Shown here in pieces: positions 57,075-57,499 of a stretch of 64,000 bases of DNA. This DNA comes from Sideroxydans lithotrophicus (GTDB taxonomy: Bacteria; Pseudomonadota; Gammaproteobacteria; Burkholderiales; Gallionellaceae), in NCBI GenBank assembly GCA_020723185.1, contig DYJI01000004.1, forward strand, positions 1 through 64,000. Reading direction: 5' to 3'. Both the position numbers and the translations under genes were made by a program. How positions within the stretch are numbered: the stretch's first letter is position 1; each line of letters opens with the position of its first letter. The notes under the pieces were generated by a model. The model was not told the DNA's origin, ran no database searches, and was given only the letters and a program-made list of their open reading frames with translations.

Positions 57075-57090
57075 TGGCACGGCGATTGCA
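57075..57090 (+). promoter_or_regulatory. Sigma-54 promoter before the ferredoxin-ccoG operon
   Basis: TGGCACG-GCGA-TTGCA is a perfect match to the -24/-12 consensus. The transcription start would be near 57101. The divergent gene encodes a sigma-54 activator; inverted motifs such as TGGCA...TGCCA at 56959-56978 may be its binding site. Confidence 0.85.
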
Positions 57091-57100
57091 TTGTTGCAAA

Positions 57101-57200
57101 CGCCGGCCTGCAGTATTCCCCTGTGCTGCAGGCACTCCCTGACCGGACGGTCTCGTCCGGCGGCCCTGACCTGTGGCGCGGTGCGCCACAGGATTTTTTT
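57101..57200 (+). ncRNA. Candidate sigma-54-dependent small RNA or attenuator leader
   Basis: Between the sigma-54 promoter and the ferredoxin gene three stem-loops follow each other. Hairpin 1 is GCCTGCAG/CTGCAGGC (57106-57133) with a C-rich 12-base loop. Hairpin 2 is CCGGACG-GTCT-CGTCCGG (57143-57160). Hairpin 3 is CCTGTGGCGC-GGT-GCGCCACAGG (57170-57192), followed by A and seven T (57194-57200), a textbook intrinsic terminator. No other plus-strand gene lies upstream for this terminator to serve. The predicted product is about 100 nt. Alternatively it is a conditional leader that must be read through to express the ferredoxin and ccoG. Confidence 0.6.
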
Positions 57201-57244
57201 GGCCGAAAAACGGACGGCAACAGACAAGACACGAGGAGCGTGCT

Positions 57245-57499
57245 ATGGCACTGATGATCACCGAGGAATGTATCAACTGCGATGTGTGCGAACCGGAATG
57301 TCCGAATGGCGCACTCGCGCAAGGTGACGATATCTACATCGTCGATCCCGCTTTGTGCACCGAATGCGTGGGCCATTACGCCTCGCCGCAATGCATCGAA
57401 GTCTGCCCCGTCGATTGCATCGTGCAGGATCCCGCCCACGTAGAGAGTCGCGATCAATTGCAGACCAAATTCGAGAGCCTTCTGGGTAGCGCAGCATGA
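57245..57499 (+). CDS. 2[4Fe-4S] ferredoxin, YfhL type
   Basis: The 84-residue protein is a low-potential dicluster ferredoxin. Cysteines 9, 12, 15, 19 and 38, 41, 50, 54, 58 are present; the eight-residue insertion between C41 and C50 (VGHYASPQ) and the C-terminal helix mark the YfhL/Allochromatium type. GAGGAG stands before the ATG at 57245. The stop overlaps ccoG by 4 bp. Its 5' leader contains a sigma-54 promoter and a terminator, so expression is probably conditional. The electron partner may be CcoG or an Fe-S assembly step; this is inference. Confidence 0.93.

Follow-up and report, generated by a model that had tools for sequence, protein, structure and literature searches.

The 64-kb stretch of DNA analysed here (the window) carries, on its minus strand, a gene for a sigma-54 activator and, divergent from it on the plus strand, a sigma-54 promoter and three hairpins that sit between the activator gene and the ATG of a ferredoxin gene at 57245. 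The features of this locus are the following.

55628..56959, minus strand: gene for a FisR-like PAS-AAA+-Fis sigma-54 activator of 443 amino acids with Cys57, Cys68 and Cys75; divergent to the RNA
56973..56986, plus strand: putative activator-binding palindrome TGCCACATACGGCA, its first base 128 nt 5' of the predicted +1
57075..57090, plus strand: sigma-54 (-24/-12) promoter TGGCACGGCGATTGCA, exact consensus
57101..57200, plus strand: predicted 100-nt small RNA; family of 26 copies in 24 genomes/records, plus L154, found later
57106..57133, plus strand: hairpin 1, variable sequence; arm-swap z 6.8
57134..57142, plus strand: linker ACUCCCUGA between hairpins 1 and 2, proposed anti-Shine-Dalgarno seed
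57143..57160, plus strand: hairpin 2, loop GUCU in the window; arm-swap z 4.9
57170..57200, plus strand: hairpin 3 and T run, intrinsic terminator; arm-swap z 5.4, 99.6% of helix cells paired
57245..57499, plus strand: downstream gene for a YfhL-type 4Fe-4S dicluster ferredoxin (NF033683, 132.3 bits; cut-off 86)
57496..58929, plus strand: downstream gene ccoG (TIGR02745, 434.5 bits; cut-off 316.7)

The promoter shows no mismatch to TGGCACG-N4-TTGCW and is the sole exact match to it in the window, where three matches are found at one mismatch against 1.37 expected. The site lies directly 5' of the RNA, as in a sigma-54-dependent small RNA, and by setting the last C of TTGC at -12 we obtain the predicted +1 at 57101; the genome has genes for both rpoN and hfq. 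A preliminary description of this DNA had placed the promoter correctly to the base, and the coordinates it gave for three hairpins (57106-57133, 57143-57160 and 57170-57192) and its run of seven T are borne out, the last hairpin being followed by an A and then by T from 57194 to 57200. We also agree with its remark that no upstream plus-strand gene needs this terminator: the nearest plausible ones end at 55147 and 55428, and the divergent activator gene intervenes (longer plus-strand reading frames across the activator were regarded as mechanical and not taken as genes). The divergently encoded activator that it mentioned is indeed present, and to this we add the identity that it had left out, namely a FisR-like protein.

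Two other features of the window were recorded in passing. On the minus strand at 9173-9188, a sigma-54 site with one mismatch (TGGCACAGTGCTTGCA) stands just 5' of an ammonium-transporter-like gene, presumably amtB; the palindrome TGCCA-N4-TGGCA (see below) is absent there, and the site probably serves ordinary nitrogen control. On the plus strand, 54809-55428 holds two small overlapping reading frames that we take to be a RelE/HigB-type toxin and a helix-turn-helix antitoxin.

Copies of the RNA and their neighbours

A DNA search of 100 genomes gave matches in 10; apart from the window itself, two of these matches spanned almost the full query. A covariance model (R1) built from 15 copies then found more. 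Within the genus, it matched 18 of 34 genomes at E 0.01, and we accepted 17 of these matches (E 2.6e-16 or better) and rejected the one in G012; within the family it matched 23 of 158 genomes, the accepted ones being the same 17 together with G110 and G165, and four family-level matches (E 3.9e-4 or worse) being rejected. Inspected by eye, the weak model matches in G012, G032:C4, G044, G139, G168, G173, G319, G367, G421, G456 and G516 were judged to be other terminators or hairpins within coding sequence, and short matches to hairpin 3 on the opposite strand were rejected in the same way. We also searched 399 genomes of the order with a second model, R2, which has only the hairpin-3 pairs and so rests on sequence plus hairpin 3. 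This gave 14 matches at E 1e-4, nine of them strong (E 5.7e-8 or better); by eye, the other five (E 4.3e-6 to 4.8e-5) look like unrelated terminators.

The distribution of the RNA follows that of the activator. All 14 genomes of the genus with an activator of at least 76% identity have the RNA, and among the 399 genomes, 11 have an activator at E 1e-180. In nine of these the activator reaches at least 73% identity, and they coincide exactly with the nine genomes that gave a strong RNA match; the remaining two, with activators at 68-69% identity, have no strong RNA match. In a scan of the activator loci L073-L116 (44 of 73 loci), a strong RNA match (at least 53.9 bits) was found at 18 of the 19 loci with an activator of at least 72% identity (L073-L090 and L102), and a weak one (20.9 bits), in the same place, at the nineteenth, L086. 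No RNA match at E 1 was found at any of the 25 loci L091-L101 and L103-L116 (activator 37-59% identity), or at any of the 14 loci L016-L029 (39-69% identity). Records with close activators are labelled Sideroxydans, Sideroxyarcus, Gallionella, Gallionellaceae, Gallionellales, Sulfuricella, Sulfurimicrobium, Nitrosomonadales, or only Gammaproteobacteria.

Our working set consists of 26 copies in 24 genomes/records; one more, L154, from a genome in a single contig, came to light afterwards and stands outside all counts. Every one of the 26 has a sigma-54-like site, a C-containing linker and a terminator. TTGC is present in all of them and GG at -24 in 25 (L052 has TAG). A palindrome, TGCCA-N4-TGGCA, lies near -128, often with a second one near -150 or -160; all 26 copies have a site that agrees with at least 8 of 10 consensus positions (mononucleotide shuffles: mean 2.14, maximum 6), a count made on the very sequences from which the motif was derived. 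The best site is at -117, -140, -149 or -161 in L056, L057, L058, L060, L085 and L089.

The neighbouring genes vary. The activator is adjacent in 21 copies, and downstream the ferredoxin is intact in 18, degenerate in one and missing in seven. L085, L086, L087, L089 and L090 have activator and RNA without a ferredoxin match downstream (over 0.8 kb in L089 and about 5.7 kb in the others), and L052 (in G025) and L060 (in G011) are second copies of the RNA, on contigs other than the activator's, with no ferredoxin in the 1.5 kb downstream. Conversely, L056-L058 have RNA and ferredoxin with no adjacent activator; genomes G013, G023 and G029 carry the RNA with no activator at its side and have only a 56% homologue elsewhere. 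The common factor, given this variation, is the RNA with its promoter. In the seven copies that lack the ferredoxin, the terminator-ended RNA is independent of that coding gene. Judged from these comparisons, promoter, structure and terminator are conserved as one unit, and the predicted RNA is a gene in its own right; the sigma-54-driven small RNA of about 100 nt that the preliminary description had put forward as one of two readings thereby gains strong support. A separate observation concerns L061 (G025:C58), where the ferredoxin is degenerate (41% identity, some 25 residues shorter, the cluster cysteines lost by eye) and the RNA and its promoter are kept.

Structure of the RNA

For the segment 57098-57260, the predicted folding energy is -74.3 kcal/mol (z -4.32), and none of 200 shuffles was as stable. 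Hairpin 3 has the most pairs (10) and the most GC pairs (8) among 24 terminator-like sites between 52 and 64 kb. The preliminary description had proposed that relatives be checked for conservation and covariation; promoter, stems and terminator turn out to be kept. We relied on an arm-swap test, chosen to avoid alignment error, in which 5' and 3' hairpin halves are exchanged between copies. The resulting chimeras are less stable than the native hairpins (z 6.8, 4.9 and 5.4 for hairpins 1, 2 and 3, with 25, 19 and 23 distinct sequences, respectively), and 16 control segments around the RNA gave z from -1.8 to 3.7, the second highest being 2.2; the test is mildly biased, halves being cut at the native loop, and the controls carry the same bias. 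These results support all three predicted stems, with hairpin 1 weak in eight of the 26 copies, where on its own it folds at -5.0 kcal/mol or weaker.

Alignment-based folding recovers part of this structure. Consensus folding of a MAFFT alignment of 15 copies gave 16 pairs in hairpins 2 (six pairs) and 3, with a covariation term of -0.8, and that of 26 copies recovered hairpin 3 alone; neither alignment yielded pairs for hairpin 1. On a further alignment, A2, in which three rows are partial and from the opposite strand and L086 is missing, so that its pair counts are only supporting, 96.0% of cells are paired (89.3% in the hairpin-2 helix), four pairs have double changes (shuffle mean 2.0), covariation is 0.140 versus 0.108, and further pair types are at chance level (11 versus 10.4).

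Conservation of sequence is uneven. Among 10 representatives of the 18 ferredoxin-bearing copies, identity is high in hairpin 3 (0.80) and in the linker together with hairpin 2 (0.76), lower in the promoter (0.67) and lower still in hairpin 1 (0.40). The linker columns C-U-C-x-C-U-G are invariant or nearly so in the 26 copies, and the linker's CUGA forms the base of hairpin 2 in most relatives. The loop of hairpin 2 is C-rich in 21 of 26 copies, the exceptions being the window, its two close relatives, L066 and L067. The C-containing element that is conserved is the linker, not the loop of hairpin 1: the loop sequence AUUCCCCU, which had been suggested as a pairing seed, occurs in just three of 26 copies (the window and two close relatives). 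The accompanying suggestion of nuoB as a target, through AGGGGAA, fares no better, as this heptamer occurs seven times in the window against 4.09 expected.

A FisR-like activator and comparison with known RNAs

The activator has PAS_4, Sigma54_activat and HTH_8 domains, that is, the regulatory, AAA+ and Fis-type parts of a FisR protein, and reaches the cut-off of none among the 25 NCBIfam models shown. All 40 homologues examined retain Cys57, Cys68 and Cys75. The third cysteine of Cupriavidus pinatubonensis FisR is at position 71. That protein is reported to form a Cys53-Cys64 tetrasulfide (PMC9495516), and the 11-residue spacing of Cys57 and Cys68 is the same, positions rather than aligned sequences being compared. 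Acinetobacter baumannii FisR is described (PMC7315123) as divergent from a sulfide-induced operon and as working without those cysteines; their presence is therefore not enough to tell which signal is sensed. Both proteins have the same sigma-54 activator architecture as ours, and the A. baumannii protein is divergent from its operon as the activator here is from the RNA; the FisR targets they report are sulfide-oxidation operons, whereas the first transcript here is the predicted RNA, followed in some species by ferredoxin and ccoG.

More distant FisR-like homologues with all three cysteines (L017-L029) face other genes. They are divergent from cydP-cydA in L018 (tested) and in L017 and L019-L021 (by printed sequence); L022 faces a SLAC1 gene; L023-L025 face a metallo-beta-lactamase-like gene (L023, tested, had no family match), which we take to be a persulfide dioxygenase; and SQR-like genes are faced by L026 (a 90-residue fragment with a weak match to the type III SQR model) and, by printed sequence, L027-L029. 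These contexts suggest a broad family of sulfide-response activators. The window's activator resembles FisR, a sensor of sulfane sulfur, and apparently switches the RNA on; its link to the RNA family is supported by the comparison of loci given above.

Small RNAs controlled by sigma-54 and enhancer-binding proteins include Qrr and CrcZ/CrcY. The RNA described here is like them in being short and terminator-ended, in its -24/-12 promoter, in its likely dedicated activator and in having extra copies in some genomes; it differs in that its activator is FisR-like, and not LuxO, CbrB or NtrC, and in having no Rfam family. No Rfam family reached its gathering score on the window RNA or on the copies scanned (nine of the 26), and we rejected Rfam membership. 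The anti-hemB RNA of Burkholderia (RF02837) is similar in having a CUCCUCCCUG motif, then a hairpin, then a terminator, and different in that the motif lies in a hairpin loop there and in the linker here. RF02837 had no match on the window RNA; on one of the nine copies scanned (of 26) it scored 21.9 bits against a gathering score of 49.5. That copy is L052 (also L037), which at 1531-1603 weakly resembles anti-hemB through CUCCUCCCUG and the terminator, a match that was absent when L052 was scanned among eight loci. Among the open-licence papers listed for FisR, sulfide/persulfide, sigma-54 or anti-Shine-Dalgarno small RNAs, no title or opening of an abstract concerned such an RNA, which is weak evidence of novelty, and none was, by its title, a study of small RNAs in Gallionella or Sideroxydans. 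In the main text of PMC8788666, the source of public RNA-seq reads of S. lithotrophicus ES-1, ferredoxin, CcoG, sigma-54 and the Fis family were not found.

Proposed function and candidate targets

We hypothesize, with fair though incomplete confidence, that this is a stand-alone, trans-acting small RNA, sigma-54-dependent and induced by sulfur through a FisR-type activator, that blocks ribosome-binding sites via its CUCC linker. In the scheme that follows, in vivo transcription, activator binding, signal, pairing mode, use of Hfq and targets are what we infer from the DNA. The activator would bind the palindromes about 128 nt (often also about 150-160 nt) upstream; cysteines of its PAS domain would react with sulfane sulfur (poly- or persulfide), upon which it would open the sigma-54 promoter. 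Transcription would stop at the hairpin-3 terminator, and the CUCC-type linker, kept unpaired between the first two hairpins, would base-pair, probably aided by Hfq, to the Shine-Dalgarno regions of target mRNAs and lower their translation. Some read-through may enter ferredoxin-ccoG where those genes follow. That the RNA covers Shine-Dalgarno sites would fit the combination of a CUCC that is single-stranded between hairpins, a terminator tail and an hfq gene in the genome.

Three other explanations were weighed. The RNA might have a dual function, acting in trans and also serving as the operon's 5' untranslated region, where, on transcripts that read through, the CUCC linker would pair with the Shine-Dalgarno sequence of the ferredoxin gene; the ferredoxin leaders mostly have GGAG-type sites that the linker could pair in cis, and the order RNA-ferredoxin is kept in two genera of the family (g1 and g12), but GGAG is generic, and we think this unlikely. 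A pure attenuator, in which the terminator sets read-through into ferredoxin-ccoG upon a second signal, was the other reading in the preliminary description. Such a leader should always stand upstream of the gene it regulates, and 18 of 26 copies do precede an intact ferredoxin gene on the same strand; moreover, a simple scan of the window found no sigma-70-type site between terminator and ferredoxin. With seven copies lacking the ferredoxin and an eighth next to a degenerate one yet retained, however, to lead ferredoxin-ccoG cannot be the main role of the RNA. The spacer from terminator to ATG varies from 44 to 153 nt, with a mean pairwise identity of 0.29 among the 10 representatives, and no competing antiterminator was seen in the folds viewed. 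We therefore regard the attenuator as distinctly unlikely, although attenuation could be a side effect in the 18 copies. That the RNA instead binds a protein, as a sponge, is highly improbable: hairpin 1 does vary in sequence while its pairing is favoured, and only short C-rich stretches are common to the copies, but no repeated known protein site was recognised, and the GGA of hairpin 2 is within the stem in the copies viewed by eye.

Returning to the trans-acting RNA, we looked for sites that its linker could cover. The complement of part of the window linker, TCAGGGAGTG, occurs five times in the genome, including the RNA itself, and a reversed-pattern control twice. One of the four non-self matches (L171, G000:C10:17567-17576) covers the Shine-Dalgarno region of a rhodanese-like lipoprotein gene, which can pair with 10 nt of the RNA without a mismatch (duplex -19.3 kcal/mol). 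Another, L169, is inside a second rhodanese-like gene; we presume that both genes encode rhodaneses. In linker-leader pairs from seven genomes with both the RNA and an orthologue of the lipoprotein gene, the mean is -15.5 kcal/mol for same-class and -10.9 kcal/mol for different-class pairs. Three relatives that lack the RNA have retained a complementary rhodanese leader (-19.0, -18.2 and -14.6 kcal/mol), so common descent explains the complementarity equally well; three further RNA-less relatives, G015, G024 and G031, were left out of this comparison since their leaders failed to align. All that the copies share in sequence is the short linker, whose complement looks like any Shine-Dalgarno sequence. 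The rhodanese lipoprotein as a target fits the sulfur theme and is a lead, not proof.

We propose, more tentatively, that in these iron-/sulfur-oxidising Betaproteobacteria a persulfide sensor may directly drive an anti-Shine-Dalgarno small RNA that silences sulfur-handling genes such as those for rhodaneses, an idea that we consider possible without favouring it. If true, it would be the first small RNA of a FisR regulon as far as the open-licence papers listed show. Sideroxydans, Gallionella and their relatives have, in any case, an RNA family that is absent from Rfam and that comes with a candidate activator and a candidate signal. This suggests that, in these iron- and sulfur-oxidising bacteria, the response to sulfur stress includes an RNA in addition to proteins; if so, sulfide/polysulfide signalling would have a post-transcriptional arm.
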